The notes beneath the pieces are model-generated. The model was not told the DNA's origin. It saw only the letters and a program-made list of their open reading frames with translations, and ran no database searches. A stretch of DNA of 64,000 nucleotides, taken from NCBI GenBank assembly GCA_905221615.1, contig CAJNDT010006160.1, positions 1 through 64,000 of the forward strand, given 5' to 3'. The position numbers and the translations under genes are program-made. Positions 4,216 through 34,158 of this stretch are shown one piece after another; within the stretch, counting starts at the first letter, position 1, and the number at the start of each line of letters is the position of its first letter. This DNA is from Symbiodinium sp. CCMP2592 (lineage: Eukaryota; Sar; Dinophyceae; Suessiales; Symbiodiniaceae).

Positions 4216-4227
4216 GTAGATGACAAG

Positions 4228-4386
4228 TCAGAGCTTCATCTGCGGGTGGAAATACAATGATGGCCATTCGTCGCCAATCGGCTTGAATCCTACTTTCTGT
4301 ACCGCGGTATGGCAATGTTGTTCCCACATGGTTCCTGCATCAGTATGTCCATATAGAGCTTTGATCAAGCGACATACAGGTCTACG
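4228..4386 (-). pseudogene. RT middle fragment of copy 1
   Basis: After the 5-nt deletion near 4387 the RT continues in another frame, with the ALYGH...GTMWEQH region typical of the Copia RT (SLYGLKQ-like motif). It ends at a TGA (4228-4230) where copy 2 has a leucine codon, four codons before YVDD. Confidence 0.8.
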
Positions 4387-7300: not shown

Positions 7301-10057
7301 ATAAGCGTTGATCGGTTCCTCGAACGACTCAGTCTGGAAGTTCGACACAAGATCGGTATCGGTGATCCCATTTGCTGTCTGAAATGATATGGGCTCTGGA
7401 GTCACGAGTGTCTCGAGACTGTGCTTCTCGATCTTCTTCTGAGATATGAGGTCATGGCCACACCCAGTGTCCATGAGAAACTTGATCTTCTTCTTGAGGA
7501 TGACTGGTTGAACCATGCATTTGAACACACCTTGATTGATGATCCGTTTGCTGTGCGCAGCATCGAGTTCACGCTCAACGATGGAATCCTCACCGTCGTA
7601 GAAGGAAACTTCTTCCACCCGAGACGTTCCTGGGATCCGTACGAATGAAACTCGATCTCCGCATTGATCATCATCGTCGTCAACCATGTCTCTCATGATC
7701 TGTGCCCTCAATCTCGCTTTGTGCTTAGCGAATTCCAAATTCACGGCGCGATCCTCATCGTTGACAAGCGCTTCCATGTCGACGTACTTCACCTTCCGTT
7801 CTTTGTCCTTCTTCGATTTTCTAGGACACGAAGAAGTGAACTTCACGTCGCCAGCGAATGTCACGTTGCGCTTGATCTCTTTTCGGGTCGACGTAGTCGG
7901 TCCCGAGGATTCGTCGTCGGTTGAACAATCCGAGTCAGCGTCGCTGTCAGCGGATGGACAATCTGACTCTTCCTCATCTTGTCTTGAAGATCGCTTCCAT
8001 ATAGCCGGGGCTGATGGATTCCACCTTCGGCACAATCTAATGGCGGGTGCCGCAGGGAGTGCCTTGGCCTTGGCATTCGGCTTCGCTGGAGCTGCCTTTG
8101 CTTCGGATTTGGCTTTGGCTTTTGCCTTTGGTTCCGGAGCTGGGGTAGCTGCGGCCTCATGCTTGAAAGGACAATTCTCTCTTGAGCACGAGCCTGTGTT
8201 CTTGAAAGAGTAGCATATCCTATTTCCTCCTCCTCCAGACGGACTTGGAGTTCTCGTCCTCGGCGTAAAGGGTCGCTCTGGAGTCTTCTTCGAGTGACTG
8301 AATGGGCACTTGTCACCATTTCGACACCCTGCATCTGTGAAATGGAACTTGCAGCGGATTTGCTTCTTGCTCTTGTCGCCTCTGTTGTCCGCTGACTCAC
8401 TCCTCGTCTTCTTCTTGGGCTTTGGCTTGGTCTTCGCATGACTCTTCGCTTTGCTTTGAGGTAGTACAGGTGTTGCTTTATCCGGCTTGGTCGGCGAAGC
8501 CTTGACCTTTGCGGATGGAGCTGCATTAGGCGTTGGTTTCTCAGGTACCTTGGCCGGTGCAGCAAGCAAATCCTTGCCCTCAAGCATCTGGCGCAAGCCA
8601 ATTTGGGTCTGAGTGAGATTTGATTGTTCTCGTCTCCGCATGATGGTACGGTCAATGATCTTCATCAAATTGTCGTACGATCGGTATTCATGATTGTAGG
8701 GCAAGTGTTCGTAGTGCATGCCCAACTCCATCTTCATTGCGGGCGAGTCCTTGATCTTGCTGTACAAGCAATCACGGAGAGCTGTTTTGGATGGTATGTC
8801 TTCTGGTCTCATCCGTCCAAGAACTTCCAACCACGTCTGCTTGAACGTATGAAGTTTGTTGTCGCCTTGGTACTGGAGCTTCACCAGATACTCGAGAGTG
8901 ATGATCATGTCGAGACGATCATGCGTTCGAAAACTTTCATACATCATCGCAATGATTTGTCGTCCTTTGATGATCTTCCCTTCGGGCCTGCTGATGTAAT
9001 CGTTGGCCTTCCGGTTCACTTCCAGGTACAGATCAGCGGACTTGTCACCACCAGCGCGTAGCATTGCGACCATGGCGACTCCCAATTTGACGTCTATGCT
9101 CTTGAACTTCTTGTGACCTGAATCGTTCAGTGCTTCGACATCAGGGAATGGATTGAACGCTGGTGCCAACCATAACATCCAGTCCTCATGATTTGGGTCG
9201 GCTGATGCTCCTAGGACATTCGCCGTGCATACGGACCGCCAGTTATTCAGGTGAGTGAGAGTAGGCCATGGAGGAACTGTCACTTTATCGGCCTCTCTCT
9301 TGGAAATTCTCACCTCCGTGATCTCAGGATCTGCGTCTCCATCGGGATCACGTGCATGAGGGTCAGGATCCGGTTCAGGTTTGCCTCCGCCGTTCTTCTT
9401 CTTATCATCATCGTCATCATCAGGCGGATCTGGAGGGTCATACCCCGTGCCGGCCCCTTCATCTCGTTCTCCCTCTTCGTTCTCGTCGCCAGCTTCATCG
9501 CCGTCATCGTCTCCATTGCCTTCCTGAATCGTTTCAGCGAATAATCTCCACTCATCACGATCAGCTCTGAGACGTTGTTCGGCTTTCTGGGCCTTGAGTA
9601 CTTCGCTTCGCAGATCAGCAATCTTCTCTTCGTACTGTTCCGCGACCTCTTTCTCGATCTGACGTCTCCTTGCCTCATGGATGGAAGCATCGAAGGTGAC
9701 AGGGGCACCATTGGGGTCGTTGCCCCTCTTAGATGCGATAATGCCGTCGATACCAACAGGTCTTGAGGAGCTGGCAGATGCCGTGGACTTCGATCCCAAC
9801 ATCCCGCGATCCTCCAAGAGTTCACGTAGCTGTCGGTCACGCACGGCTGCCGCATCACTTTGCCCATGAAATCCGCTTGGTATGCCAAACAGAGTGGCTG
9901 CACTGGGCGTGGAACGCGCATGTGCTGGACTGCTAATGCCTGGCACGTAGTGCTCGGGCATTGCATCCGCCACGATTGGCGTTGAGTAGGATCTATCTAC
10001 CTCACCTTTGATGCGGCCAGTGAAGAAGTTTCCACCGGTAAATGGGATGCCATCCAT
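4382..10057 (-). CDS. gag-protease-integrase-RT (N-terminal part) segment of Copia polyprotein
   Basis: This is a 1,891-residue open segment. Residues 250-480 are a gag-like helical region. Two CCCH zinc fingers follow: C569-x8-C578-x5-C584-x3-H588 and C615-x8-C624-x4-C629-x3-H633. The aspartic protease has D863-T-G in an LMDTGCG context. The integrase has an HHCC zinc site (H1096, H1100, C1107, C1110) and catalytic D1139, D1203 and E1234, followed by an FDPKGIPGIFAGY-type motif near 1320. Acidic linkers surround these domains. The RT begins near 1785, and the frame ends within the RT because of a 5-nt deletion. The apparent start at 10057 is an internal Met; the true frame comes from 11634. 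Confidence 0.9.
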   Translation of the reverse strand: MDGIPFTGGNFFTGRIKGEVDRSYSTPIVADAMPEHYVPGISSPAHARSTPSAATLFGIPSGFHGQSDAAAVRDRQLRELLEDRGMLGSKSTASASSSRPVGIDGIIASKRGNDPNGAPVTFDASIHEARRRQIEKEVAEQYEEKIADLRSEVLKAQKAEQRLRADRDEWRLFAETIQEGNGDDDGDEAGDENEEGERDEGAGTGYDPPDPPDDDDDDKKKNGGGKPEPDPDPHARDPDGDADPEITEVRISKREADKVTVPPWPTLTHLNNWRSVCTANVLGASADPNHEDWMLWLAPAFNPFPDVEALNDSGHKKFKSIDVKLGVAMVAMLRAGGDKSADLYLEVNRKANDYISRPEGKIIKGRQIIAMMYESFRTHDRLDMIITLEYLVKLQYQGDNKLHTFKQTWLEVLGRMRPEDIPSKTALRDCLYSKIKDSPAMKMELGMHYEHLPYNHEYRSYDNLMKIIDRTIMRRREQSNLTQTQIGLRQMLEGKDLLAAPAKVPEKPTPNAAPSAKVKASPTKPDKATPVLPQSKAKSHAKTKPKPKKKTRSESADNRGDKSKKQIRCKFHFTDAGCRNGDKCPFSHSKKTPERPFTPRTRTPSPSGGGGNRICYSFKNTGSCSRENCPFKHEAAATPAPEPKAKAKAKSEAKAAPAKPNAKAKALPAAPAIRLCRRWNPSAPAIWKRSSRQDEEESDCPSADSDADSDCSTDDESSGPTTSTRKEIKRNVTFAGDVKFTSSCPRKSKKDKERKVKYVDMEALVNDEDRAVNLEFAKHKARLRAQIMRDMVDDDDDQCGDRVSFVRIPGTSRVEEVSFYDGEDSIVERELDAAHSKRIINQGVFKCMVQPVILKKKIKFLMDTGCGHDLISQKKIEKHSLETLVTPEPISFQTANGITDTDLVSNFQTESFEEPINAYVLEDTPSVLSIGKRCMNFNYGFVWPPGREPFMINPQGKRISLFVNGDIPYIRAGSSKSLVHDDAEAKAITEIFKGVLTAGDVDVNVAAAAEAAPSEIEAEEEGDAHERPPDPEPQEPPIEEVPESEAGRPPDDEGAGVGEIPLYGDDEMIIDVEGDGAPSRKARVGTLKAEAKTLAHLCTHRYRNPYCESCIRAKMKHLRTQRGAFQRVIKHWGDLVTFDFLDMRKAAEAGIGLDDGAREVLVIRDIATKMIAAIPTASRNTDEVVMAIRRLMGRRKINMAYSDEAPEFDSAMAQLRIVIDHSLPGKPSNNSLAERSNQEVINTVAASMLHAGLPAQYWSFALNCVMQNLNIEDVEGDGDSAWKRMTGKGFEGKAIPFGAKVFFKPTDTRPKTYGNKFDPKGIPGIFAGYIITAGQGWSKKYRVWDMKEFANANLSMDASVPRKLMRPYETEVIYFPEEITFPLKAEYERMNSTIEGIRDNVDLAGKEIKDVDDGDDGPPGGNGGNGDDDDQDDLLPPPDPGEDPDLQDIDPSDIETEPSGEVFKSAEHEAIDAIGDKRLDELDKELGLRAAPPPSEPKVTGKDRRSLREVGPTGRLIPEGDIEEPGEIIKILKEKKLAPEEIEHWSTGKKGDGIVYLTVDGEACKIDKRGVPYKIRSDGRRTLPTRRPIHSYSPEAWKKMSEAEKKAAYKKEKRDKARVAKKDRKKAAIGKKIVTKILDNMIFPKIVPCEEIDLQLNVSLDDDDGWSWAQSYVDQYTQEQFLADVVPAVPAHMVMDDNWIPSMPCTTSHRNVHREKNHAGGSCFNAMVTRPVTRKEMINNPKAMEAFMKEWKGLWDQEVFDFSTTREYDDVVAEAKKKGEKVHMARVHGLIYGKNYQLKEDDPARKFKGRGVLLGDQVKDQNMEAALFQDLGNSPATFDASRWADYYGCLPGNDVQMADAIQAYIQARLSGTPCWVELPDEAWHPSAKRHP

Positions 10058-11634
10058 CGCAAGGTTCTTGTCCTTGTCCGATTCCGAGAATGCGAACTTC
10101 TCTTTGGCGACTGGACTAATTGACTTGGGGACCGTATTTCAGGGGATCGTACCTCACCTCCTACGGAAAATGCAGGCACTACTTCCTTTCCTACGTGCTC
10201 CCAGCCAGACTCAGTAGTCCTCGAAGACATGGGCATGCTCGAAGGCCGTGTCACTCCGCCATGGTAGTTGGAGTTCCGTGCTGCCTCCAATTCGCTGCGT
10301 GTCCTCGCTTGAAGATCTTCTTGTGCTTTGAGCGTTTTCCTGAGTTCACTCAGCTCGTCGTGCAAGGTGGGCAATGCGCGCCTTGCATGATCCTCATTCT
10401 GATGAAGTCGGTCCTCTGCATCTTGCATCCTCTTCACAGCCATTTTGCGGTACTCTTCCTCCTCACCAAGACGTTCGCGAAGCCGAAGTCGTTCTTGATC
10501 AATGGCTGCGCTGTTCCCAGCTAGCCCTTGAATCTCGTTTACGGCCCGCAACTCCTGATTCCTGACCAGGTGGAATCGTTCCTGCATCGCTTGTAAGGCT
10601 TGTTCCGAACTTGCTGTGTTCGACCGGAGGAACAAGTTCTCTCTGGCTTGTTCATGAAGTTCATGAGTCAGATGCTCATACTCACGTGCCATAAGTTCAC
10701 CATCGCCTTGCGCTCTTGCCTCCAACTGCACAAAGTTAGTGGCTGCTTCCGTGCGGAACACATGTAGCTGCTGAGCCAATTCCTCGGCAACGGCGTGTGC
10801 TTGACGTTGTTGAGCAGAGTTCTGTTCATCCATGCGAAACAAAGCTGTTTCATAGTCTCGCTTCATCTCCTGATTGACATTGTTGATGTGCCTCATGGCT
10901 AAGCATGCATGGTCACGTTGTCGTTCCAATTCTTCGATGCGAATCCCAGATCCTTCATCTTCTTGCTGCATCTCCTTGATCTTCTCCATCAGGGTCTGAA
11001 CAACACTTTCGTACTCCTGCACCTGACTTCGATAGTACATCTGCTGTGCAAGATTCGATGCTTCAAATTGTTGCGGAATTGTCAATCCCTGGTAGGCATT
11101 CGGACCATCGGCTATGGCTGGTGTAGTCACTGACGAAGCGTCACCCCGTGCAGGGATTGTGTCCAGAGTCATATCCAGATCGTCAGCTTCGCGTGGTTGA
11201 TTGGTAACCATTCGATTCCAAGTCATGGACTTGTCACGTCCACGAGTAGCCGAAGTCCTTGATCGTGCCGAAGAGCTTCTTGAGGATGATGGTCGCGGCT
11301 TCTTTTCCAAAGTCTTCACTCCCTTGTCCTTTGCCCTCGACGGGGTCCGAGGTGCCTGAAAACCAGATGCTTCGGATCGTCGTTCTGGAGCCTTGCTCGT
11401 CCTCGAACCTGTGGATGTTGGACGCGAAGGCGTGGATGCTCTTGGTAGACTCTTGGCTTTCACTTTGGGAACTGCCTTTGCAATGGCAAGCGCAGAAGAT
11501 TGACCTTTGTCATCTTCCGTGGAGCTATCAACGGATTGCACCACTGTGTCGTCAGCTGTTGACTCACCAACGGCTGGCGCTGCCACATCGGCACCGAAAG
11601 TCATTGTCGTATCTTGGCTTGATCCCGAGTTCAT
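9997..11634 (-). CDS. gag N-terminal segment: basic Ser/Arg-rich region plus long coiled coil
   Basis: This is the 545-residue first open segment of gag-pol. Residues 50-140 are rich in Ser, Arg, Lys and Pro. Residues of roughly 190-455 are charged and lack prolines, with heptad-like spacing, as in a long coiled coil suited to particle assembly. The last ~45 residues are out-of-frame readthrough after a 1-nt deletion near 10121; in copy 2 the same region reads straight into the next segment. The start ATG is the first after the LTR and is shared by copy 2. The family is not recognised beyond its position at the head of a retrotransposon polyprotein. Confidence 0.8.
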   Translation of the reverse strand: MNSGSSQDTTMTFGADVAAPAVGESTADDTVVQSVDSSTEDDKGQSSALAIAKAVPKVKAKSLPRASTPSRPTSTGSRTSKAPERRSEASGFQAPRTPSRAKDKGVKTLEKKPRPSSSRSSSARSRTSATRGRDKSMTWNRMVTNQPREADDLDMTLDTIPARGDASSVTTPAIADGPNAYQGLTIPQQFEASNLAQQMYYRSQVQEYESVVQTLMEKIKEMQQEDEGSGIRIEELERQRDHACLAMRHINNVNQEMKRDYETALFRMDEQNSAQQRQAHAVAEELAQQLHVFRTEAATNFVQLEARAQGDGELMAREYEHLTHELHEQARENLFLRSNTASSEQALQAMQERFHLVRNQELRAVNEIQGLAGNSAAIDQERLRLRERLGEEEEYRKMAVKRMQDAEDRLHQNEDHARRALPTLHDELSELRKTLKAQEDLQARTRSELEAARNSNYHGGVTRPSSMPMSSRTTESGWEHVGKEVVPAFSVGGEVRSPEIRSPSQLVQSPKRSSHSRNRTRTRTLRWMASHLPVETSSLAASKVR

Positions 11635-11678
11635 TGTGGTCGTAGTAGATCAAGTAGTCTTTGCTGTAGAAAGGCAGA

Positions 11679-11698
11679 GCCGCGTACGGCTGATAACC
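11679..11698 (-). promoter_or_regulatory. Primer-binding site, copy 1 (half-tRNA type?)
   Basis: Directly downstream of the LTR end, the sense strand reads GGTTATCAGCCGTACGCGGC. Its complement ends GGCTGATAACC, like an anticodon stem-loop rather than a mature tRNA CCA end. Drosophila copia and yeast Ty5 prime from a half tRNA-iMet cut in the anticodon loop, with a site starting GGGTTAT or similar. One anticodon base differs from iMet (G for C), so the tRNA identity is uncertain. Confidence 0.45.
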
Positions 11699-12166
11699 TG
11701 CGTGGGGATTTGATCCTGGTAATGCTCTGTATCGCTCACCCCACAAAGAGCTGTATTGACTGTTGGCGTGGTTGCCCTCTACAAGCTGGATCACCGTAAC
11801 TTCCACTTCCACACACGCACTCCTATGCAGGCAGATCCAACGTTCGCTCCTTTTGCACACTCACGGCCGGCGGTGGATCGTCTGTGCACGGGATAGCTCT
11901 GTCTACTCGGAGGATCACAAAGATTATAGCACTTTAGCTATGGGCAATGCTTTCTAGAGCTTGTGCTCATTCTTGAGCCAAACGTTGCATGGGCGGTCAT
12001 ACTGAAAGGATGGATAGGCATTGCGGTGTGCGTAGCACTACCACAAGCCTACTCCTAGAGACGAGGGACGCGTAGCGTGCCCCCTTCCCTTGCACTTTAC
12101 ATGGTCTTGCTCACAGCTCTTATAGTGACACCTTGGAACTTGACAAGGCATCGCAGTCCGTTCGCA
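11699..12166 (-). repeat. 5' LTR of copy 1
   Basis: This 468-bp block begins TGCG and ends CGCA on the plus strand, the usual TG...CA ends. It recurs at 16688-17154 and 39576-40042 with only one or two differences; here there is one extra A in the middle. In the sense direction there are TATA-like words (CTATAAGA near LTR base 45, CTATAATC further on), and 11 bases at 11972-11982 match the 3' end of the dinoflagellate spliced leader. U3/R/U5 borders cannot be placed. Confidence 0.93.
11972..11982 (-). promoter_or_regulatory. Spliced-leader-like 11-mer inside the LTR
   Basis: In the sense direction the LTR reads TTTGGCTCAAG, which is identical to the last 11 bases of the conserved dinoflagellate spliced leader as I recall it; upstream bases do not match. 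The same 11-mer occurs in the other two LTRs (16960-16970, 39848-39858). It could be a relict leader captured when a trans-spliced RNA was reverse transcribed, or chance. Confidence 0.35.
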
Positions 12167-16687: not shown

Positions 16688-17154
16688 TGCGTGGGGATTT
16701 GATCCTGGTAATGCTCTGTATCGCTCACCCCACAAAGAGCTGTATTGACTGTTGGCGTGGTTGCCCTCTACAAGCTGGATCACCGTACTTCCACTTCCAC
16801 ACACGCACTCCTATGCAGGCAGATCCAACGTTCGCTCCTTTTGCACACTCACGGCCGGCGGTGGATCGTCTGTGCACGGGATAGCTCTGTCTACTCGGAG
16901 GATCACAAAGATTATAGCACTTTAGCTATGGGCAATGCTTTCTAGAGCTTGTGCTCATTCTTGAGCCAAACGTTGCATGGGCGGTCATACTGAAAGGATG
17001 GATAGGCATTGCGGTGTGCGTAGCACTACCACAAGCCTACTCCTAGAGACGAGGGACGCGTAGCGTGCCCCCTTCCCTTGCACTTTACACGGTCTTGCTC
17101 ACAGCTCTTATAGTGACACCTTGGAACTTGACAAGGCATCGCAGTCCGTTCGCA
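16688..17154 (-). repeat. 3' LTR of copy 2
   Basis: This is a 467-bp block with TG...CA ends, differing from the 5' LTR at 39576-40042 at two positions (CCCTCT/CCTTCT and ACACGG/ACATGG). Confidence 0.95.
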
Positions 17155-17162
17155 CCCCCCAT
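17155..17162 (-). promoter_or_regulatory. Polypurine tract
   Basis: The sense strand reads ATGGGGGG immediately before the 3' LTR, the expected place and composition for the plus-strand primer of reverse transcription. Confidence 0.7.
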
Positions 17163-17421
17163 GAGTTGCGTCTCCGACGCTGCTCACCCGGAAGATGGCA
17201 CGATAGGAATGTCAGAAAATTTGTTCCGCCGCAACGTTGACATATAGATCAGAGCTTTTGCATCCCAATTAGAAACGTTGTGACACTCATCTACGTCGGT
17301 AACGATCCCCTGAAATGGCAAACGAATCAGGCGTCACCGAAGAAAGAGGCATTCGCGATGGAATTCCACGAGCGAAGCACAGAGGTCACAATCTTGAAGA
17401 TGAGGTAGATCATGTGTTGTC

Positions 17422-20400
17422 TCACCGCCATCTTCGCGTTGACGTAGCATCGCGGTCCCAGGGCCGGAGGTTCTCCTCTGGATACTGGTTCCTCTGCTTT
17501 CCTTTGTCCTTGCCTTTGTTTCGGCCTTTGCCGGCGATGTAGTCGTGGTAGGAATTGGCGTTCCAGCCACCATGTTGCTCATCTCCGGTTCTCTCACGCC
17601 CTTTTGAAGGTCCCTTTGCCGAGGAAGCGCTTGCACGTTCCTCCGTGGTGACGGGCGTGTCCATGATGGAAGTACCACCCGGAGGGAGATACTCTTCGGC
17701 CGAAATGTGATGTAATGCTTCAGGACGTCGAGTATTCGGATTTTGCTGTCTTTCAACTCTAGACTTGACCAATCTGTCCATGAAGTGCGCTGGCATTTGC
17801 ACGTTGTGGTCCACCAGCAATCCAACGGTCTGGACGGAATAATCTGCATGAGTCAAGAGGATGCCGACCGGGTCGATGTACAGAAAGTCCACTGGTCCAG
17901 TTGGCGTGTTTCGTAGTACCGAAAACTGTTGATGTCCTGTCACCATCGGGATAACTTCACATAAGACGTTGAGGCAACAAAAGTGCATTGCCTTCACGTC
18001 TTCATCCTTGTTGCTCTTCAAGTACGTGGTTGGATTGAAGTTATCTCTGCCGATTCCCATCATGTTGGCTCCCCGTGTCAGTAGAGAAAGCATCTGGTTC
18101 GTCCGGAAGCGCTTCAAAGTGTAAGTCCCGTTGGGATCATACGACTTGAGGTTTTCAGGCTCCTTAGCGAAGCGAATGATCTCCTCGTCAGTCACGTCCC
18201 TGCTCACACCTGTTTCTTTGTCCACTCCAGCCAAAGTTCCCCACTTTCCGAGCACATCATAGCGTTGGCCAAGTGCGAAATTCTCTCTCATCTGAAACAA
18301 CGGCATAGTCGCCCACTTCGCGAATCCTGACCAAGCTTTGTAGATGGTTCTGCACACGACGAACGCCATATACGAAAGAGCGGCCATGTTGGCGTCGATG
18401 CAATGGGCGTTCCGTTTGCCGTGGTGGTAGGGCGGCTGCATGGCAGTGCGGGCGATTTGCAGTTCAGGGTCGATGTTCAGAGACTGACCGGCGATGAGGA
18501 CGGGACGTCGTTCCTGTGCCACTGCATCTGGTACTTGGTCGTCAAAGTCCTCTCCCGGTTCCGTGTCCATTTCTTCATCAGGTTCCTGTTCTGGATCGTC
18601 ATCGCCAGCAACGGACGGTTCTGGAATTGCTTCGGGTTCCGCAACCGATTCCGCTTCCATGGCTTCCTGTTCCTCGGCGGTTGCTTCAGGTACTGCTGCT
18701 GCCGCAGCTTCCATCGTCTGAGCAATGAAATCACTTGGGATCTCCGTAGGAGTATCCCGTTGTGGAGTACCTTGGTAGTATCCGCAAGAAACGAATTGTG
18801 ACCAGCAGGATGTGCATCGAGAAAAGCATGCTGGAACGATGTTGTAGCACGCTGGGCATACCCTCATTCTCCTGCCATCCTCATCTCTTCGTAGATCTTC
18901 GGGTCGCCAGTTCTTGATGACAAACTTGATACCCTTGTCCATGTAGTGATGTCGAACTGTGTTCTCCCTGTGGGCCTCCAAAACAGTGATAAGGTCTCGC
19001 ATTATCTGATCCTTGCTTGTGTCATGGGGTCCAGGAGGCATCTCGCAAAGCAATTCCATGATCTTGCTTGGTGTTCGATATCTCTCGAATTCAGGAAGCA
19101 ATGGAGATCCATTGTAGTCCAACACCATCTCTTTCTCCAATCGTTCATCATAGATCTTTTCCACAAGAGCGAACGAATGTGTATCCTGAGGATTCGGGAC
19201 GCAAAACCATACCTCCTTCACGAACTGGAACGGTATCGTTCGACCAAGGATGATGACACCGCTGTCAGTGATACGTCCACCTTCTCGGGCAAGATCTGTC
19301 GAAGCGACATGGAGGACCACAAGGGGCATGTGCTTGGCTTGCGGCCCGTGTACCCGAGTTTTGGTCGTTGCGTTCCGGTCATCGAACGGCGCGAATACCC
19401 CCCAGTAACTGTGGAGTCTGCCACCTCGGTTGTCCTGAAATCGACGCCGCTGTTCGAAGTCCCCGTCAGGATCCTCCGAACCAGGCATGACGCCCTGCAG
19501 AACGATGGAATCCAAGTTGCGGCATGCCGTAGCGTGGAACGCGCCCCCGAGACGTGTCAAGAGGGTCATAGATGGAGATATTGCGAACCGGTCCTTGTCC
19601 AACTGAAGCAAATTGTTCTGGGGATCGGAGTGCGTAGAGTGACCACTTGTGGCCCTGACAGCCCATGGTTTCACCCAGCCATTGCAAACGTTCAGGTACC
19701 TCTGATTGTGTCGGGTACGGTCGTTGTTCTGGATCTCTGTAATCTGATCGGGAACCGACACCAACATGTTCGAGTTCGCAGATCCAAGAGTCTCTGTGCC
19801 GGGATTCTTCACTCTCACACCCAGGAATTGTAGCCGGATCTTGGCCTTGTGGCGTTTCGTGGCTGCAAGCATATTCCCCTGGAACAGTAACTGCAGTCTC
19901 TCATTGTACACTCTCTTCCTTTGGTACTCGTCGGTCCTTGATACCGCTTCGGTAATGCGTCTACTTTCGTGGGTCCATAGTTGCTCATGCCTCACCAAGT
20001 CCTCTATCAGCACCCACCCTCCTTCATCACATCGAATAACGCTGCTGAATGCCACTTGGCACCGGTTGTCAAGCCATTCCGAACCTGGGCGCCTGGCAAT
20101 TCTGTGGCGTAAGTCAGATTGAATGCAGGATAGCGCCCATTCTGCGTTCCTTCTTCGATGATGGTTGATGTTGCGAAGGACAACTTCATTCACGATGTCC
20201 CATCGATTGTTGATGAAGCTTGCACCCTTGGTTGGGATCAGGTCAAGAATTCCGCATCGGATTGGCCTTCCGCCGCCGATGGATTCGTAGCCTGGATTTG
20301 CCCATTGTTGAGTATTCTCATCATACTCGAAGCTTGGACGATCTCCTCGTTGAGGCAGTCGTCGGTCACGATGGTCCGAAAGCTGCTCAATGAGATCCAC

Positions 20401-21549
20401 CACCCGCTGACTGTTCTCGGGTCCCATTTCCCGCAGCGGTACGCCACAAGCGTCATGTAAGCCTCGACGGTTCTCCACCTCCGTGCATAGGTTGTGTGTG
20501 TTCTCGTAACGGATCAAGACCACATCACCCCGAACGGCTTCGCCTCCGCATCGCGGTCGGGCTTTGGCCTTGGGTCGTCGGTCCGAGGAAGCAACACTCA
20601 CATGGTCTGTGGCATCAACGTCCATTGGCTCCGCTTGTTGCGTAGGTGGTCGACGTGGATAGCGAAGAAGACTGTCCCGGATGACCTGAATGCTTCGAAG
20701 TATCAGATCTCGGGTTGCAGCATTTTCAGTGCAATCAGACAGATGATGTGATTCACTGCCACAAGCAATGCAGAACGTGAAGTTATTGCTCCCGACTGAC
20801 ATTTCGCCCTGAGCAAGTATTCCCACATAGTCCTGAAGCTGTGTGACGAGTACCTCACGAGTCCTTTGCCTGGGATCGTGCTCTTCAGCACCTTGTTCTT
20901 CTTCAGGTTGCGCATCCACATCAACGTCCTGTGTTGGTATTGGTGGTGCAACTGAAACCCCTGGATCGCCCGTGACGTTGTCAGCGGCCTGTGTCTCGTC
21001 GTTCCTTGCAATTTCTACGGGGTAGACATCACCATCGACGATCACAGTGAAATCAATCACGAGGTCAGCGGACAAGTTGTTGACGATCTCAGCGACTTGT
21101 TCATTCTTCTTGGGCGGTGTCCTCTTGCGTGGGGAGTCAACCGTGATGAGCTCGATAGCCTCGGCCGACGCATAGCGGAAGAATGATCTTTCGATTCCTC
21201 TCACGCACGCATTTGCCCCTTCAAGACCACCCCAATTTGGAAAATGGTTTGGGTACCTCATTGCTATTGTAAGAAGCCCGAGTGCCAGCTCCAATGTGTC
21301 GCCCAAGAGTTCCTCCTTAGGCAAAGCTGACCCCCTGTAGCATTCTTGGCGCTCTTCCGGAGTCAAAAGCATTCTCATGAAACCAGCATAAGCGCAGTTC
21401 CCGGCATCGTAGTAGCAGATGTAGCAGGTCTTCCCTTCGGAATCGCATCCTCTGTCCCATGCCAACTGTTTGGCTTTTCCCCATGCCGCGTACTCGATGG
21501 CCTGACTGGCTGTATCGGAGACCACCGTAGTGAGAAACCGTTTTGCCAA
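17422..21549 (-). CDS. ORF2 C-terminal half: CCHC knuckle, Tpt1/KptA-like RNA 2'-phosphotransferase domain
   Basis: This is a 1,375-residue open segment. A CCHC knuckle lies at C260-x2-C263-x4-H268-x4-C273. Residues of about 460-785 resemble Tpt1/KptA, the NAD+-dependent enzyme that removes 2'-phosphates from RNA. LRH lies at 480-482. DEGGWVLIEDLV (508-519) matches the N-terminal winged-helix motif, and AVRATSGHS (630-638) matches IRANQGHS. FHAT...LDSIVLQGVMPG (671-690) matches the HGT...SIL.GL motif, RLH is at 711-713, and VVLHV...RITDSGVIIL...F.KEVW (744-781) is the last block. The final catalytic Arg appears shifted by one (R759). A zinc-ribbon-like C898/C901/C912/C915 and a basic tail follow. 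The first codon is TTG and the frame continues from the upstream segment through a frameshift near 21540. Confidence 0.75.
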   Translation of the reverse strand: MAKRFLTTVVSDTASQAIEYAAWGKAKQLAWDRGCDSEGKTCYICYYDAGNCAYAGFMRMLLTPEERQECYRGSALPKEELLGDTLELALGLLTIAMRYPNHFPNWGGLEGANACVRGIERSFFRYASAEAIELITVDSPRKRTPPKKNEQVAEIVNNLSADLVIDFTVIVDGDVYPVEIARNDETQAADNVTGDPGVSVAPPIPTQDVDVDAQPEEEQGAEEHDPRQRTREVLVTQLQDYVGILAQGEMSVGSNNFTFCIACGSESHHLSDCTENAATRDLILRSIQVIRDSLLRYPRRPPTQQAEPMDVDATDHVSVASSDRRPKAKARPRCGGEAVRGDVVLIRYENTHNLCTEVENRRGLHDACGVPLREMGPENSQRVVDLIEQLSDHRDRRLPQRGDRPSFEYDENTQQWANPGYESIGGGRPIRCGILDLIPTKGASFINNRWDIVNEVVLRNINHHRRRNAEWALSCIQSDLRHRIARRPGSEWLDNRCQVAFSSVIRCDEGGWVLIEDLVRHEQLWTHESRRITEAVSRTDEYQRKRVYNERLQLLFQGNMLAATKRHKAKIRLQFLGVRVKNPGTETLGSANSNMLVSVPDQITEIQNNDRTRHNQRYLNVCNGWVKPWAVRATSGHSTHSDPQNNLLQLDKDRFAISPSMTLLTRLGGAFHATACRNLDSIVLQGVMPGSEDPDGDFEQRRRFQDNRGGRLHSYWGVFAPFDDRNATTKTRVHGPQAKHMPLVVLHVASTDLAREGGRITDSGVIILGRTIPFQFVKEVWFCVPNPQDTHSFALVEKIYDERLEKEMVLDYNGSPLLPEFERYRTPSKIMELLCEMPPGPHDTSKDQIMRDLITVLEAHRENTVRHHYMDKGIKFVIKNWRPEDLRRDEDGRRMRVCPACYNIVPACFSRCTSCWSQFVSCGYYQGTPQRDTPTEIPSDFIAQTMEAAAAAVPEATAEEQEAMEAESVAEPEAIPEPSVAGDDDPEQEPDEEMDTEPGEDFDDQVPDAVAQERRPVLIAGQSLNIDPELQIARTAMQPPYHHGKRNAHCIDANMAALSYMAFVVCRTIYKAWSGFAKWATMPLFQMRENFALGQRYDVLGKWGTLAGVDKETGVSRDVTDEEIIRFAKEPENLKSYDPNGTYTLKRFRTNQMLSLLTRGANMMGIGRDNFNPTTYLKSNKDEDVKAMHFCCLNVLCEVIPMVTGHQQFSVLRNTPTGPVDFLYIDPVGILLTHADYSVQTVGLLVDHNVQMPAHFMDRLVKSRVERQQNPNTRRPEALHHISAEEYLPPGGTSIMDTPVTTEERASASSAKGPSKGRERTGDEQHGGWNANSYHDYIAGKGRNKGKDKGKQRNQYPEENLRPWDRDATSTRRWR

Positions 21550-24500
21550 TGTCTTCGTAGGTCACTTCCGCACATGCTTTGAGGAACTCCTTGATGTCCT
21601 GACGAGGGTCCACAAATTGAAGCCTCAGGTCATAGAGGTGCTTTGCGCACGCCAAGGTGTATTTCTGGGACGCGACTAAGTCGTTGAAGGAGTTGATGAG
21701 ATGCTGCACCTTCAAAGCTGAAGTGTGTGCGCATCCAATGCAGTGTCCAGGGTACCCGTTTCCTGCTGGCTTGAATAAGGCTTGTGCGTAGCACTCAGCC
21801 AATTTCATAGCTTCACAGCCTGGGCAATAGAACGCTCTCCCTTTGACGTAGCCAGTGTTTGCGGTCGCGTAGGTGTCGATCCTGAACCAATAGTGCCTGT
21901 TGTCATAGTAGGCTTCGGGAACAGTCATGGCGATGTCAAAGTCCTGCCAAGTGACCGTGGACGACTCAGCAACTGTATCGCCCTGGGCACCGGACCTGAT
22001 TCGTTGTTGCTGTTCTCCCGTGAACCATGTCTGCGAAATCTTTGTGGACGTGGTGACTTCACTCTTGTCCTCCCAGATCTCGACGAGCGACGGGTGCGCA
22101 ACTGTATCGACGCGGACACTTTCATCCCATGAGCGGATTCTCGATGCCTCGACAAAACACGCGGATACCATCTTCTCGCTGAACAGCTGCTTCTCATAGA
22201 TAGCGTAGCCCAATTTGAACCTGACTCGAGAGTCCGGTGCCGGCAGCTTTTCGGCTGACAGCGAATGTACGCTCGACGACGAATGTTTCATCTGGCTGTA
22301 CATTCTCGACCAAAACGAAGATCCATGAATCACCACGCATGCTCGGGCCCGCAACTCCAGTTCAATGTACATTCCCAGCGCATGGAAACCGTTGAACATA
22401 GAAGACTTCTTGAGAAGGTAGTTGCTAGCTGCTCCAACGAACCGTAGGTCGTGGTTGATGTTGACAATTGGAGGGCGCGTGGTACGCTTCCCTGCTGCAA
22501 TGATGGGGTCAACGTACGTTCCCTTGAGCTGTTGCTGCAACCTGGCACGAATTTCCGCTCCGTCACCAACGTCACTCATCGGAAAGGACATATTCTCGAT
22601 GAGGATTGCTTGGAGAGACAGATGGTAGTGCAACGTGACGGTTGCGATTTGCTCTTCAGACAAGCCGTCCAATGTGGTGTTCACCGATTCCAGTGACCTT
22701 TTCGTGACTTGGAAGTTGTAATTTGCTCCTGTAGTGATCGACGGGCTCACAATGTGAGTCTCGCTCCACCCGTGCATGCTGAGGTTCTCTCTTAGTGTAT
22801 GCGTTGATCCTCTTGTTCTTGCAATGATGTCAAAGTCCTGGACGAGGATCGTGCACTGAGAGCGCATAGTCGTGGCATCGGGTTTGCCACCCATACCCAA
22901 ACTGTTGCGAAATCCATTCAGCGTGTTCATGGTGTTGACCTTCGCCTCTTCCGGAACAGTGTCGCTCTCGACAAGGTCGCGATCTGCCTCGATCATTACT
23001 GCCGAGGTAAGCAATGGAGGAGAAGGAAGATGCACGCATGACACCAACGACAATGCGTGGTATAGTCGTGAGTACATCCGAAGCCACGCCTTTGTGTTCA
23101 GCTTCACGTAGACCTTCAGGTTGAGACCTTTGTCATCACTTTGGGAAACAGAACGAACCCTTGCCAAATAGGTCACCAGTCTTCTGACGTAATGCTGAAT
23201 AGGCGTGGTCCCCACGTCGTGGTTGGCCACAAACTTTGGCGTCTCATCAATGGTAGCCCGGTACTCGTCGCGATCACGGATCGTCGTCAGCAAAGCAGAG
23301 CGACAGCCCTTCTCAACGATGTTGACATAATGATACCAGCTTTCCTGGGCGCCAGCAGGGATTGGAGCTTCCTCCCATGCCGGTTGCGTTGGTTCCTCTT
23401 CCGGTTGTTGAGGCTGTTGTTGTGGAGGAGGTGCTGCAGAAGACGACGATGCCGATGTCGTTGCTTCGTCCGTCCTTGCCCTCTTTGGTCCATGGCTTGG
23501 AGTGGCACGAGGTTCTGTGTTGTAGTCCCGCGCTTGCCCCGGCGTCCTTCCATGTTCAGGGTGCACGATTCCTTCCGGTTCGAGATTGCTTGCCGTAGGC
23601 ATCGCAACTCTCCCCGACTCGTATACCCAGTTAGGATGCCGTTGAAGGTTGGGCGGAAATAGGCCATCATCTTGCATCAGCGGACTCGGTGCTCTCATCT
23701 GTTGGAATTCAGCTTCCCATATGCCCAAGGTGTCACGTTTGGTAGCGCAGTCAGCCACGTAGCCAGATTCAACTCCGCATTGGTTCCAGGCGTAGCCACG
23801 GAACGACTCCGGCAACTGGAATCCGTTCTTGTCTTGAGCTGCACACACTGCTTCCACATGGTGCTTGAGAAAGGCATACGTGGTATAGTCGGAATCGGGG
23901 AGCACGTCAGTAGTCCATCGGTAATGCGGGAGCCCACTGTGTGGATCTACCCACGACACATAGGAATGAAGCACGTAGAGACATATGCTGAATGCCTGGA
24001 GCGAGTTCATCGCAAAGGCGAGCGGATGTCCCATGCCCTGGGGCATTGTGCGCATCATCAAAGCCAGCTGGTGGACATTGATCGGCGAAGCGCCGTCGCT
24101 GCTCGTTGCACATTCTTGGTTGTAGGTTCGAAGCCCATACCCAGTATGCTTTGCGAACATGTACATCAGCTTGCACACCCTACATAACGTAGGCTCTCCC
24201 AACAAGTCGGATTGGTCGGGTGCCCTGCCCGACACTGGCAACTTGTGGTAGTAGTCCTGGTTCACCGTATACCACTGCTGAATTCTTGTATCTGTCACGG
24301 CCTGGTAAGGAGTCTCCACGGAGTTGATGAGGACGGCGAGGTTGTAGTAAACATCCGCGTTGACAATGTTCCTGGTCGCGGTGTTCAAATCGAACCGAAC
24401 TTGTCCCCTTTCTTGCTCCAGTTCAACCACAGCCAGCTTTGCATCATCACGGATCACTTCCTCATCCACCATAAACCTTGTGATGGCATGGAACTTCCCT

Positions 24501-24910
24501 CCGTAATCAGCAACGATGTGCTTGAGGCCTCCACCAAATTTGATGACCATGGCGAAGATCTCCCCATAGGGTTTGTCCATGTACTCCTCCGGGGCGGCAA
24601 ATAAGCAAGCCTTGAGGATTTCTCGAAATCGAATGGACAGGTCCCCTCCTGACGACAGATTTGCGCATGTGAATAGCAAGACCAGCGGTGGTGCTTTGAA
24701 TGCTGCCCACGTGCGGATGAGATCATTGTCGACCACTTTGTCTTTCGTAATCTTTGGCGGGAGCGGTACGCTCTGCGACGAATCTTCAGAGTACATCTGC
24801 AGAAACGTGTGGAACTTCATGAACGTCCGCATCATTCCACCAGGTGGGAAAACTTCTTCATGGGCCACTCCTTCGAAGGACAGTTCATAGCCATTGTAGC
24901 TTTCTTCCAT
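21317..24910 (-). CDS. ORF2 N-terminal half, function unknown
   Basis: This is a 1,197-residue open segment starting at the first ATG after gag-pol, 109 nt past its stop. No family is recognised. A CRVC site lies near residue 245. A low-complexity Ala/Ser/Pro/Gln/Glu linker at about 460-540 separates two globular-looking parts. A CPGC...CIGC double pair near residues 1075-1105 could bind zinc. The last ~75 residues are out of frame: near 21540 the sense strand has GGCAAAACGG, and one A fewer would join this frame to the next segment. So ORF2 was one protein of about 2,490 residues, more than a third of the element's coding capacity. Confidence 0.7.
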   Translation of the reverse strand: MEESYNGYELSFEGVAHEEVFPPGGMMRTFMKFHTFLQMYSEDSSQSVPLPPKITKDKVVDNDLIRTWAAFKAPPLVLLFTCANLSSGGDLSIRFREILKACLFAAPEEYMDKPYGEIFAMVIKFGGGLKHIVADYGGKFHAITRFMVDEEVIRDDAKLAVVELEQERGQVRFDLNTATRNIVNADVYYNLAVLINSVETPYQAVTDTRIQQWYTVNQDYYHKLPVSGRAPDQSDLLGEPTLCRVCKLMYMFAKHTGYGLRTYNQECATSSDGASPINVHQLALMMRTMPQGMGHPLAFAMNSLQAFSICLYVLHSYVSWVDPHSGLPHYRWTTDVLPDSDYTTYAFLKHHVEAVCAAQDKNGFQLPESFRGYAWNQCGVESGYVADCATKRDTLGIWEAEFQQMRAPSPLMQDDGLFPPNLQRHPNWVYESGRVAMPTASNLEPEGIVHPEHGRTPGQARDYNTEPRATPSHGPKRARTDEATTSASSSSAAPPPQQQPQQPEEEPTQPAWEEAPIPAGAQESWYHYVNIVEKGCRSALLTTIRDRDEYRATIDETPKFVANHDVGTTPIQHYVRRLVTYLARVRSVSQSDDKGLNLKVYVKLNTKAWLRMYSRLYHALSLVSCVHLPSPPLLTSAVMIEADRDLVESDTVPEEAKVNTMNTLNGFRNSLGMGGKPDATTMRSQCTILVQDFDIIARTRGSTHTLRENLSMHGWSETHIVSPSITTGANYNFQVTKRSLESVNTTLDGLSEEQIATVTLHYHLSLQAILIENMSFPMSDVGDGAEIRARLQQQLKGTYVDPIIAAGKRTTRPPIVNINHDLRFVGAASNYLLKKSSMFNGFHALGMYIELELRARACVVIHGSSFWSRMYSQMKHSSSSVHSLSAEKLPAPDSRVRFKLGYAIYEKQLFSEKMVSACFVEASRIRSWDESVRVDTVAHPSLVEIWEDKSEVTTSTKISQTWFTGEQQQRIRSGAQGDTVAESSTVTWQDFDIAMTVPEAYYDNRHYWFRIDTYATANTGYVKGRAFYCPGCEAMKLAECYAQALFKPAGNGYPGHCIGCAHTSALKVQHLINSFNDLVASQKYTLACAKHLYDLRLQFVDPRQDIKEFLKACAEVTYEDIGKTVSHYGGLRYSQSGHRVRGMGKSQTVGMGQRMRFRREDLLHLLLRCRELRLCWFHENAFDSGRAPRMLQGVSFA

Positions 24911-25021
24911 GGCTCGGGACCCGGTCCTTCCTCCGTGGGAGAGAAGTACCTACCCCTATATGACTTCGCGGTTCCAGGTACTCTGTAAGAGACACCCTTC
25001 CCCGATCAGTCAGGTCAGACC

Positions 25022-25340
25022 TTAGTTGTTCCTTAGTCGGGGCTGTCTAGTAGCCCCTCCATCAGCGTTTACACACTGACGTTGCTGCCATGCGGTGTCC
25101 TCAGATTCATGTGCATCACAACTGAGACTAGCATGAGCTCGAACAAGGCTGCGAACATTCTTCGCAATTGACCGCCATGACGCTTCAATGCACTGCGACA
25201 AACTGTTCCCTGTTTCATGGTCCAAGCAACCAGATGATTTCATCAGCAAACGATCCGCCTCGGGCATGTTAGAGAACATGATCCTGCGTCTACCACCATC
25301 GCCATCAGCACCAACATGATCATCAACCTTAACCTTTGTC
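25022..25340 (-). pseudogene. gag-pol C-terminal tail, copy 2, severed by a foldback insertion
   Basis: This matches the last ~100 codons of gag-pol in copy 1 (722-1040), with the same stop codon. The insertion at 25341-25437 separates it from the rest. Confidence 0.8.
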
Positions 25341-25437
25341 TACTATTTGCTTAAGAAACCCCCAAAAAATAAAAATAATAATCCCTATATTACCCCCCAT
25401 AAGGAATATATTTTTTATTTTTTTTTGGGTTCTTAAG
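25341..25437. mobile_element. Foldback insertion in copy 2
   Basis: There are 97 nt here where copy 1 has a single A (near 1041). The core (25350-25437) has CTTAAGAA ends and long A/T-rich arms (CCCAAAAAATAAAAA pairing with TTTTTATTTTTTTTTGGG). No clean target duplication is visible. It ends the pol frame at 25433. Confidence 0.85.
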
Positions 25438-28400
25438 CCTTGCCACTTGAAACAAGAGCATGCAACTCTGGCCAAGACCAACATGAACATGAAGAAGGCA
25501 TGTCAAGCGAAAAATAGACGTCGGAAAATTCCGCACACTTCTTCAGCAGGCGTTTGAGAGATTTCAAGACACTTCTGAAAACTTTGTACTTCCCACCGGA
25601 ACGTTTCTCACCCCCCACGCAAGCCCCTTCGCTACCTCCAGGACTGGCACCTGATCGCAAAAGCGATGCCACGAACAGCACAGGTGTGCGCAGGTCATTC
25701 CGGCACGACTTCTTCATTGCACCGATAAGGCTATCCTCGTCGGCGCTGGAGCCAATCAGCTCTTTACACGTAATGCGAGCGCATCCCTTAGTGGATTTGG
25801 ACACGGCGTAGCCATTGCCCATGCCACAAAGGTCAACAATTATGCGGTCTGGCTTTCGTCCTTCAGCCTTTGACGGCATTGCAACCAATTTCCCGTCGCC
25901 CGTTGCCTGAAACTTCAAGGTCTTAAGCAATCTCCTGGAAATTTGACTGGTTAACTCGCAATTATCAGATCGATCCTTAGCGTCCGCATCAGTCATGTGC
26001 ACATGTTTGGCTGAGCACATGTCAGACGACTTAGGATGCAACGCGACGTTTGCGGCAAAGTACTCCCATTCATCCTTGCAGTAGCCGAGCTCAACGGCGG
26101 TTCCGGGAGATACAGGATCTCGGAAGATATAACGTTGCCCGTGAGTACACCCTTGGATCTTGATGCTCTTCCACACGGCGTCTTCCTGAAGTCCCTTGTA
26201 CTGCTTGGTTTCTTGAACTTGTACGCGAGGAGGCACCTCAATGATGACTTGGTTTCCCCACGATGCCGCTCTACGCGCAATTCTTTGGACGACCTCCCCC
26301 CATGGGTAGTCCGTCCGCAATCTGGCCCTTTCAGGGTTGTTGGCGATTTTCCGACTCAGCCACGAATTCTTGCCTAACACCCCCGCACCGACGAAGATCA
26401 CGGAGTTAGGGTTGCTTTTCCTTGCTTCCACCACATCGAAGAGGTAGGCGCACATGGCGTCGTCAACTTCTCGCCCCATACTCAGAACATTCACTTGCAG
26501 CCCAGGGTCGTAGTGAGAATCGGGAGCATGCTGCGCAATGCAGTCCTTGCCAGGAGCATACTCATTCCACCAGTTCTCCTCATCGACTCCTACCAATGTC
26601 CACACCGTCACTGCCTTTGGAGCATCTTTGATAGTGATACGGTATTTCCAACGGCTGTAAGGATTTTTGTAAGTATGGACCAACCCTCCATCGTGGTCGA
26701 GGAATTGGATCACCAGGCCCTCCTTGGGTTTGTTTTCGGCGAAGTTGACCACGTGAGGCACAATTGCTCCATCATATCCTTGATATTCCCTTTTCTGTTC
26801 AGCCGCATCATGCCATACATCCTCGTACACTGACGACCATTGGTCATAGCCGAATTGAGAGGCTTGACTTTTGGACAGGCCGTTGAAACAAAGAGGTAAT
26901 GTAAAGCCCTGGTACCCCCCATGGATGGCACGCGCCAGTGTGACAACCACCGCACGCCATTTGGCGGGCAGGGCGCGCACGTAAGACTGGCCCAAAGGCG
27001 GGTCAGGAGGAGGCAGAAACGGCGGCGCAAGGACGTCCGCAATAGCGGCCGGGCGCAAATGTCCCCGGACCGGATGGTACTGAAACACAGCACGTTCCAC
27101 ATAGCGGTCGAACTTGCCCGGCTGATCAAGGATAGCAGCACGGTCCTCCATTTGGTGCCACTGCCCTTCACGAAGAATCCAAGTCGACCGAAGGTAGCGA
27201 CCAGGCGGCAACGCAGAAGGCGGCCCCCGCAGCATGCGCGGGAACTTGACGACCAGGATGGGGTCCACACTGTCATGTTCTTGCAAGCCTTCCTTACTCG
27301 ACAAGCCAGCGCGATACAACACCTGAGGGAGGATCGGCGTCTGCGTGTAAGGAAAACAGGGCACCTCGCTCTTGAAGGAGTAGTGCTGTTGACCCTTCTC
27401 ATCCGTGCTCTGGGTATGAGTAGGGCGCATCAGATCCATAATCTCTTGGGAGCCGATGATGGCCGGCGGGAAAATGTTGATAAGTTGACACGCATGTGTC
27501 CAGGATACGGAATCCTTGAACGATTTGGTGTGTATGTCCGCCGACATCTTGGCAGTGACCTCATAAGCGAGAGAAACGTAACCCTCCTGAAAGATAGAGT
27601 GCATCCAGCCAATGCAGATGCCGTGGGTACGCTCCAAATGACGCATTGTCGGATTCTTGCCCGTGCGAATCACCCCGATCATGGTCTGGTTGTCGTCGTA
27701 GAAGACGAAGTTGGGGTCTTGACCCCCAAGCTGCTGCCACAACGTGATAGCAGGCAATCCAAGACGTGACATGGCAAAGTCGGCCGCGACAATCTCGGCC
27801 TCAGGTGTGGAGTGACTCAAGCACCCCTGCCTTTTGCTAAGTCCCGCCAAGGGAAACCTTGTGTGAGAACCTTGAATGTGCAAGTGAGCACCGGAGGTAG
27901 ATTTCAAACTTTCTCCACAACCTGCATAGTCCGCATCTGCAAACAGTCCGATGGACGAGTCCTCCAAGGAGTTCCCGACCCATCCAATCATCATGTGATG
28001 TTTGGACTGGTGCACATAGGCCATGAGATGATGAAGAAGAGCATCCTCCTTCTTGGTCCATTTCGTGATCTTGCGTGCGAGATTGTTGATACTGCGCAGA
28101 AGATCAAAGCGGCAAATGCGCGCGGCATAAAGCAATTTCATGAGAATGCTCGCTGCCTGCGGGGCAAGTGCACCGCGATTAGCCTCGTTGACTTCCTCTT
28201 CCTCTGGCGCCTTGGGAATAGGTGGAGGCGGAACAAGCCGACCATCCTTATCAACAGGCATGGTGTGTCCACACCACGTGCATCGATGGCTTTTACCTGA
28301 CTGTGCCGGAGCACGAGCTGGGTGATTCTTGGTCTCCTCAGCCGGACTCGGCGATGGTACCGTCTTGAATTTTGTCGGATCGAACCCAGTCACGTCGCAG

Positions 28401-29218: not shown

Positions 29219-29224
29219 GAAAGC

Positions 29225-30079
29225 TTACATGGCCTTGGGGTTGTTGACCATCTCCTTGCGTGTGACGGGTCGAGTGACCATGGCATTGAAGCATGATCCT
29301 CCTGCATGATTCTTTTCCCGATGTACGTTTCTGTGAGAAGTCGTACACGGCATAGACGGAATCCAGTTATCATCCATGACCATATGCGCCGGAACGGCCG
29401 GCACAACATCTGCCAAGAATTGTTCTTGTGTGTATTGATCCACATAGGACTGTGCCCAGGACCACCCATCGTCGTCATCAAGGGACACGTTAAGTTGCAG
29501 ATCAATTTCTTCACATGGAACAATCTTGGGAAAGATCATGTTGTCCAAAACTTTGGTGACTATCTTCTTTCCTATCGCGGCTTTCTTCCGGTCCTTCTTG
29601 GCAACTCGAGCTTTGTCTCGCTTTTCTTTCTTGTACGCTGCCTTCTTCTCCGCTTCACTCATTTTCTTCCATGCTTCCGGAGAATAGGAGTGGATAGGTC
29701 GCCGTGTAGGGAGAGTTCGTCGACCGTCGCTTCGGATCTTGTATGGGACTCCCCTTTTATCGATCTTGCAGGCTTCACCATCATCAGTGAGATATACAAT
29801 GCCGTCCCCTTTCTTCCCCGTACTCCAATGTTCAATCTCCTCAGGAGCCAACTTCTTTTCTTTCAAGATCTTGATGATCTCTCCAGGTTCTTCGATGTCT
29901 CCTTCGGGAATTAGTCTACCGGTTGGACCGACTTCGCGGGGCGATCGCCGATCTTTCCCAGTGACCTTTGGTTCAGAAGGAGGCGGTGCTGCACGTAGAC
30001 CTAGCTCTTCGTCTAGTTCGTCGAGTCTTTTGTCTCCTATGGCATCAATGGCTTCATGTTCTGCTGACTTGAAGACTTC
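29225..30079 (-). pseudogene. Integrase-RT linker segment of copy 2
   Basis: This Lys/Glu-rich linker between integrase and RT lies in a frame reached only after the 1-nt deletion near 30080. It runs to the TAA at 29225-29227. The first Met in it is at 29866. Confidence 0.75.
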
Positions 30080-32193: not shown

Positions 32194-32221
32194 CTTCCTT
32201 TCTTTGTCCTTCTTCGATCTT

Positions 32222-34058: not shown

Positions 34059-34158
34059 NNNNNNNNNNNNNNNNNNNNNNNNNNNNNNNNNNNNNNNNNN
34101 NNNNNNNNNNNNNNNNNNNNNNNNNNNNNNNNNNNNNNNNNNNNNNNNNNNNNNNNNN
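34059..34158. other. Assembly gap (100 N)
   Basis: Exactly 100 N, the conventional filler for a gap of unknown size. Sequence left of it corresponds to copy 1 position 9656, and right of it to 6281, so 3,376 bp are represented on both sides. An open frame spanning the N block is a chimera and has no meaning. Confidence 0.97.

Follow-up and report, generated by a model that had tools for sequence, protein, structure and literature searches.

A Tpt1/KptA-Like Domain in a Copia Retrotransposon

The DNA analyzed here (the window) is a stretch of 64,000 nucleotides from Symbiodinium sp. CCMP2592 and contains a complete Copia-type long terminal repeat (LTR) retrotransposon on the minus strand (16688..40042; 23,355 bp). 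The element is bounded by two direct LTRs with TG..CA ends and possesses a reverse transcriptase (RT) match to RVT_2 at 28487..28783 on the minus strand (PF07727, E 7.6e-8, 32.7 bits, cut-off 31.6), which falls within the open reading frame (ORF) 25433-29218. Downstream of pol and upstream of the 3' LTR, on the same strand, lies a second coding region that includes a Tpt1/KptA-type domain with an RNA lobe and a nicotinamide adenine dinucleotide (NAD) lobe (19144..20157, minus strand). The original prediction, made from the sequence, had placed a Tpt1/KptA-like RNA 2'-phosphotransferase domain at 19195..20172, which corresponds exactly to residues 785-460 of the ORF 17422-21549 on the minus strand. 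That position was correct, but the C-terminal limit was set too early, and the domain extends to about residue 802 of the ORF (model residues 11-348).

PF01885 was the sole Pfam family matched by the whole 1375-aa ORF at E<=1, with a score just below the cut-off of 26 (E 4.1e-5, 24.2 bits). The domain alone (window:19137-20187, minus strand, 350 aa) scored above this cut-off (E 1e-6, 29.4 bits). When an eight-member family profile was compared by hhalign with seven canonical Tpt1/KptA proteins, the two matched at E 1.4e-8 with a probability of 95.5, over the NAD half only. Based on the PF01885 score and this profile match, the resemblance goes beyond chance. In comparisons of the predicted fold, the Tpt1 rows cover model residues 10-16 to 326-348, the Tpt1 match to the domain spanning residues 11-348, whereas the non-Tpt1 rows cover only the NAD half (from ~198). 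Tpt1 was also top-ranked in one sequence-profile search and in both fold-comparison lists. The profile and fold checks suggested with the original prediction therefore agree with the profile-profile comparison, and, as judged from the profiles and the predicted fold, the domain is a member of the Tpt1/KptA family and fold. Other searches were negative. A single-sequence search of the PDB with the domain and a search of NCBIfam returned no match, and the profile of the distant clade alone found no Tpt1 in a PDB sequence search. The longer profile A2 matched an unrelated PDB protein first (E 0.2, outside the domain) and Tpt1 second (E 0.25), neither of which is significant. A first fold, predicted from 9 sequences, was poor (predicted local distance difference test score 43.6) and was not used.

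Conservation of the Catalytic Tetrad

The ordered Tpt1 motif blocks named in the original prediction were all located, on the minus strand. Their conservation was counted in the columns of alignment A5 (41 rows), using only rows with a letter at the column. A5 omits 13 of the 53 related proteins described below (P0001, P0020, P0026, P0032, P0040, P0042, P0046, and P0048-P0053), which were short, fragmentary or rearranged, P0052 and P0053 having been found later. Column counts replaced counts of whole-protein regular-expression motifs, which were discarded because variants were missed and many proteins are fragments. The first block, LRH (20104..20112, residues 480-482), contains the tetrad residues Arg481 and His482, with R and H present in 22 of 22 lettered rows. 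It is followed by CDEGGW, the winged-helix motif of the RNA lobe (20014..20031, residues 507-512), which aligns to the canonical GW/GY. VRATSGHS (19636..19659, residues 631-638) supplies Arg632, where R is found in 30 of 32 rows. FHAT (19528..19539, residues 671-674) is the counterpart of the canonical HGT associated with the adenosine ribose of NAD. In this motif the H and T are retained and the G is replaced by A, with H672 in 36 of 37 rows and T674 in all 37. GRLH (19411..19422, residues 710-713) holds Arg711, an R in 36 of 36 rows, and SGVI lies at residues 763-766.

In the unguided MAFFT alignment, R481, H482, R632, and R711 all align to the canonical Arg-His-Arg-Arg tetrad. The original prediction, which recognized two of the four residues convincingly, was thus too cautious. 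It had also described the last Arg as shifted by one residue; in the MAFFT alignment Arg711 shares a column with the Arg of the canonical RxxVHL/F, whereas the hhalign alignment does not put it there. At the region of the NAD-phosphate Arg cage, the sequence alignment has RVHGPQ in the window and RVSGR in several relatives.

Relatives, Selection, and Independent Insertion

A large protein collection was searched three times, with 8, 43, and 5 matches that amount to 53 distinct proteins (P0001-P0053). Conservation of the domain extends across subfamilies and to deep relatives. P0001 and P0006, the two relatives carrying organism names, are from Symbiodinium microadriaticum, and no relative was found among the IMG/VR viral contigs. 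There are at least two clades among these proteins. Clade A, which includes the window domain, shows 36-57% identity in A5, with P0001 at 88-89%, and carries GRLHSYFG or a near variant of it. Clade B (P0008, P0039, and P0043) has ~26% identity and possesses SGRxxxHFxxFPPW. Of the two His residues in the canonical RxHxH, the first is retained in clade A and the second in clade B (alignments A3 and A6). In the clade B protein P0008, residues 5-147 share 44% identity with the C-terminal portion of the window Copia RT ORF (E 4e-26) and are followed by the Tpt1 polyprotein. Because P0008 joins a Copia RT stretch to this polyprotein, the association of Copia with Tpt1 seems to predate the split of clades A and B.

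Within the same genome, 102 of 1213 candidate copies, ranked by protein similarity, were scored. Eleven of these (the window copy, L007, L023, and L031-L038) were used to calculate the ratio of nonsynonymous to synonymous substitutions (dN/dS) by the NG86 (Nei-Gojobori) method for the Tpt1 domain only, and ranking by protein similarity biases dN downward. The ratio was 0.057-0.133 in 53 of the 55 pairs; the other two, with low dS, gave 0.031 and 0.234. Among the 11 copies dS reaches 0.62. A stop codon occurs within the 409-aa stretch compared in 7 of the 102 scored copies; the per-copy comparison comprised 30 loci, with L022 omitted for its shorter match. From these substitution patterns, the domain appears to be under purifying selection in the sampled Copia copies.

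The second coding region of the window copy is composed of two overlapping minus-strand ORFs. The first part (21317..24910; 1197 aa) and the second (17422..21549; 1375 aa), which contains the Tpt1 domain, are joined in the relative P0005, a single frame matching both consecutively. In 24 of the 102 scored copies, the open frame around the domain runs to 2,506 codons or more. Given the split ORFs here and the open frames in other copies, the second polyprotein is broken in the window copy and intact elsewhere.

An independent insertion on contig C1015 has two 448-bp LTRs that are 100% identical to each other and ~77% identical to those of the window. It is 19,749 bp end to end and is flanked by a 5-bp duplication, TAGTG/TAGTG. 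This element was sampled at both ends, at a 3-kb pol stretch and at the domain, the RVT_2 core lying outside the sampled stretch. The pol stretch corresponds to residues 368-1260 of the window RT ORF with 97% identity, and the domain differs from the window copy by a dS of 0.49. Because this insertion has the same layout, the Tpt1 domain is mobilized together with the element. The identification of a giant Copia element as the carrier, with the domain between the LTRs and downstream of RVT_2, is thereby upheld.

Tpt1 Domains in LINE-Type Elements

A search of the same genome (G000) with PF01885 gave 152 matches (1550 candidates, 150 scored). Among the matches listed, all except the last two scored 130-178 bits, far above the window domain. 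About 130 matches, as counted by eye, scored 130-140 bits, most of them within a frame of ~665 codons, and some were ~10.1 kb apart on one contig. A first lineage, of the type of long interspersed nuclear elements (LINEs), was sampled at L050 and L051 (contigs C10 and C5312; L050:3163-5124 and L051:1356-6074), which are 99.98% identical over 4,068 bp. Their upstream ORF of 1572 aa contains RVT_1 (E 4.9e-22, 79.1 bits, cut-off 29.6) and a ubiquitin hydrolase domain, along with a weak endonuclease match (Exo_endo_phos, E 0.005, below cut-off). The downstream 653-aa ORF encodes a canonical Tpt1 of 136.5 bits and a PARP-like stretch (E 2.3e-4, below cut-off).

A second group, 14 among the matches listed, scored 147-159 bits and was sampled at L048 and L049. 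Adjoining L049 on the same strand, L052 possesses RVT_1 (E 1.9e-16) along with a ubiquitin hydrolase; its endonuclease match is weak. By virtue of these neighboring domains, L049/L052 is assigned to another LINE-type lineage (L046, L048, L049, and L052), in which the long ORF that holds a canonical Tpt1 is located upstream of the ORFs for endonuclease and RT. The domains of L046 and L049 are 78% identical, and the remaining members of the group, judging by score, would be like L049.

One further match, L047 (L047:1285-2007), is probably the host Tpt1 gene. It scores 164 bits over 240 aa, and the N-terminal part missing from its frame is perhaps on another exon. A 19-row tree has the Copia domains on one side of a branch (100/99) and groups the LINE domains with L047 (96/95), which is placed between the two LINE lineages with support below the bar of the tool (82/85). 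Because the Copia domains are separate from the LINE domains in this tree, carriage by the two classes looks separate, amounting to two or more events. When a small set was compared pairwise by BLASTP, the best match of the window domain outside its clade was the bacterial KptA L041 (E 4e-6), compared with E 0.1 for L047. Since the bacterial KptA outscores L047 and the Copia domains form their own clade, these sequence comparisons do not support an origin of the Copia domain from the host gene.

Proposed Role of the Domain

Tpt1 removes a 2'-phosphate in a two-step reaction that requires NAD+ (PMC6333775). In yeast without Tpt1, rejoined HAC1 mRNA that retains its 2'-phosphate is described as poorly processed and subject to decay (PMC6456296). 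The best explanation overall, held here with middling confidence, is that the giant Copia element has an active Tpt1/KptA domain, kept by selection for catalysis, that serves the element's own RNA. The domain would be produced from the element transcript as an NAD+-dependent enzyme, its activity being a prediction, and its target would be that same RNA. The element RNA may be cut and then rejoined by a plant/fungal-type ligase, which would leave 2'-phosphates at the junctions, and the Tpt1 domain would most likely clear them. An uncleared 2'-phosphate would be expected to impede reverse transcription and to flag the RNA for decay, and the net effect of its removal would be that the genomic RNA stays copyable. 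A role at the RNA level is favored because two LINE-type lineages, which lack the integration chemistry of Copia, carry Tpt1 too. This carriage speaks against a role that depends on LTR integration or on a tRNA primer.

An alternative is that the domain is an active ADP-ribosyltransferase that does not remove 2'-phosphates but caps the 5'-phosphate ends of the element RNA or cDNA, protecting them against exonucleases, ligation or sensing. Human TRPT1 is reported to ADP-ribosylate 5'-phosphorylated RNA and DNA, and a Streptomyces KptA is reported to do so with 5'-phosphorylated RNA. In TRPT1 this activity is lost upon single alanine substitutions in the tetrad (PMC6582358). Capping also accords with the strong conservation of the NAD-lobe positions H672, T674, and R711 and with the PARP-like stretch, below cut-off at E 2.3e-4, in the Tpt1 ORF of one LINE family. 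However, the RNA lobe, with LRH and the winged-helix motif, is likewise conserved, in keeping with 2'-phosphate substrates too. While the present evidence fits 2'-phosphate removal and 5'-end capping alike, capping as the exclusive activity is considered unlikely. It is less probable still that the domain is catalytically dead and is retained for RNA binding or as a structural segment of the polyprotein. Several observations do weigh against an active enzyme, namely the replacement of HGT by HAT, the large insertions, the apparent partial loss of the NAD-phosphate cage and the low score of the whole ORF against Pfam. Nevertheless, the four catalytic residues are invariant or nearly so in A5, an alignment in which identity falls to 26% in the most distant rows, and RNA binding would not need the catalytic set.

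The classical role of Tpt1 is in tRNA splicing (PMC6333775). An enzyme serving the host tRNA or primer pool, by repairing 2'-phosphorylated or cut tRNAs, for instance to provide a tRNA-fragment primer with a usable 3' end, would be in keeping with this role. Also in its favor, the primer-site sequence of the Copia element is identical in two subfamilies and starts with GGTTAT, resembling the site at which a half-tRNA primes Drosophila copia. Against it, the pattern search of G000 gave no exact tRNA match to the primer site, and the LINEs, which use no tRNA primers, carry Tpt1 too; the proposal is very doubtful. Finally, the resemblance to Tpt1 could arise by chance or from another ADP-ribosyltransferase of the DarT or toxin type. 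DarT1 appeared in one sequence-profile search (E 0.62), an unrelated protein preceded Tpt1 among the PDB matches of profile A2 (E 0.2, outside the domain, against 0.25), and toxin ADP-ribosyltransferases come next after Tpt1 in the fold lists. The non-Tpt1 rows of the fold comparison match the NAD half only, whereas the Tpt1 rows match both halves of the predicted fold. Tpt1 is first in three ranked lists, and PF01885 is the only Pfam family above cut-off, making this last explanation scarcely credible. Returning to an enzyme that acts on the element's own RNA, a broader proposal is more tentative than the role itself: NAD+-dependent RNA repair or capping by Tpt1 may be a general weapon of the retrotransposons of this algal lineage, acquired at least twice (Copia and LINE) and retained because it protects element RNA against cutting or marking by a host defence.

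Comparison with Known Systems

The domain resembles Tpt1, KptA, and TRPT1 (PF01885) in its predicted two-lobed fold, in the order LRH, VRAxxGHS, HxT, and GR, and in the Arg-His-Arg-Arg tetrad. In contrast to canonical Tpt1, it sits inside a retrotransposon polyprotein of ~2,500 aa, possesses HAT instead of HGT and contains insertions. Its local identity to canonical members is ~24-32% over matched stretches of at least 57 columns. The capture of DNA methyltransferases by dinoflagellate retrotransposons, mentioned in the original prediction, is documented for LINE and DIRS elements of Symbiodinium (PMC5890265). Like the present element, SymbioLINE-Dnmt and SymbioDIRS-Dnmt3 are multi-copy Symbiodinium retrotransposons with a captured enzyme domain; unlike it, they are of the LINE and DIRS types and their enzyme is a cytosine DNA methyltransferase, a domain that Symbiodinium Copia is stated to lack (PMC5890265). 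The words Tpt1, phosphotransferase, and PTS_2-RNA are absent from its main text. Orchid Ty3/Gypsy elements with an N6-methyladenosine (m6A) RNA demethylase domain likewise combine an LTR retrotransposon with a captured RNA-modifying enzyme, but the superfamily and the enzyme differ, and their acquisition is described as recent (PMC9289625). In the open-licence PMC literature, considered by title and the start of the abstract and with subscription papers and preprints outside its scope, no retrotransposon with Tpt1 was found. In the main text of PMC6338049, on the accessory domains of retrotransposon polyproteins, phosphotransferase, Tpt1, and ADP-ribos do not occur. Enzyme-capturing retrotransposons are thus a known kind; that the enzyme is Tpt1, and that it is carried repeatedly, appears to be new.

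Tpt1 is described as non-essential in exemplary bacteria (PMC6333775), and the finding bears on its function beyond tRNA splicing. If the proposed role is correct, the presence of Tpt1 in two classes of elements, with an intact active site under purifying selection in the sampled Copia copies, would indicate such a function. The interplay of host and element at a hidden level, through RNA damage, repair or capping, would then become directly testable.

Other Features of the Copia Element

Self-comparison of the window located the 5' LTR at 39576..40042 and the 3' LTR at 16688..17154 (467 bp each, minus strand). In the orientation of the element they start with TG and end with CA, and 2 of the 467 positions differ. 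A 5-bp flank, GTAGT (40043..40047), is repeated at 16683-16687 as a possible target-site duplication. Because both flanks sit within a GTA microsatellite, the duplication is ambiguous and constitutes weak proof. The primer-binding-site position (39552..39575, minus strand; GGTTATCAGCCGTACGCGGCTCTG) has a predicted hairpin and is conserved in the C1015 element. The 31 nt after the 5' LTR (39545-39575) are identical in that element (L055), where the LTRs are ~77% identical, and can fold as the hairpin AGCCG-TACG-CGGCT. Self-priming or an unusual primer is possible for this element. A half-tRNA primer was also considered. With intact LTR starts excluded, an 18-base pattern of the primer-site sequence occurred once in G000, in another element copy where ARAGORN found no tRNA, and no exact tRNA match was found with this pattern. 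At the other end, a G6 tract directly upstream of the 3' LTR (17155..17160, minus strand) occupies the polypurine-tract position.

The gag-pol region (25433..39511, minus strand) consists of several ORFs and contains a tandem duplication in pol (30682-34058 / 34159-37532; ~3.4 kb, offset ~3.5 kb by self-comparison). The element without this duplication would be ~20 kb. A second element of the same family occupies 1..12166 on the minus strand, with its 5' LTR at 11699-12166, and is cut by the left end of the contig, as the window begins at base 1 of contig C5298. Its matches of zinc-finger, protease, integrase and SH3 type follow one another as expected for Copia, and the zinc finger alone exceeds its Pfam cut-off. 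The protease-type match and then the integrase-type match, both in ORF 4382-10057 and below their Pfam cut-offs, are located upstream of the RT region.

Upstream of the Tpt1 domain, the second polyprotein includes a conserved stretch with a GDxxE core (window 21549-21200; also P0005, P0007, and P0008). A likeness of this stretch to RNase III was considered and is not claimed, as Pfam gave no match at E<=1 in the scanned window ORFs and P0001-P0008. C-terminal to the Tpt1 domain (window 17422-19140) is a four-cysteine stretch that resembles a zinc ribbon (CPACYNIVPACFSRCTSCW), and comparable four-cysteine stretches are present in the relatives of alignment A1 that extend that far.
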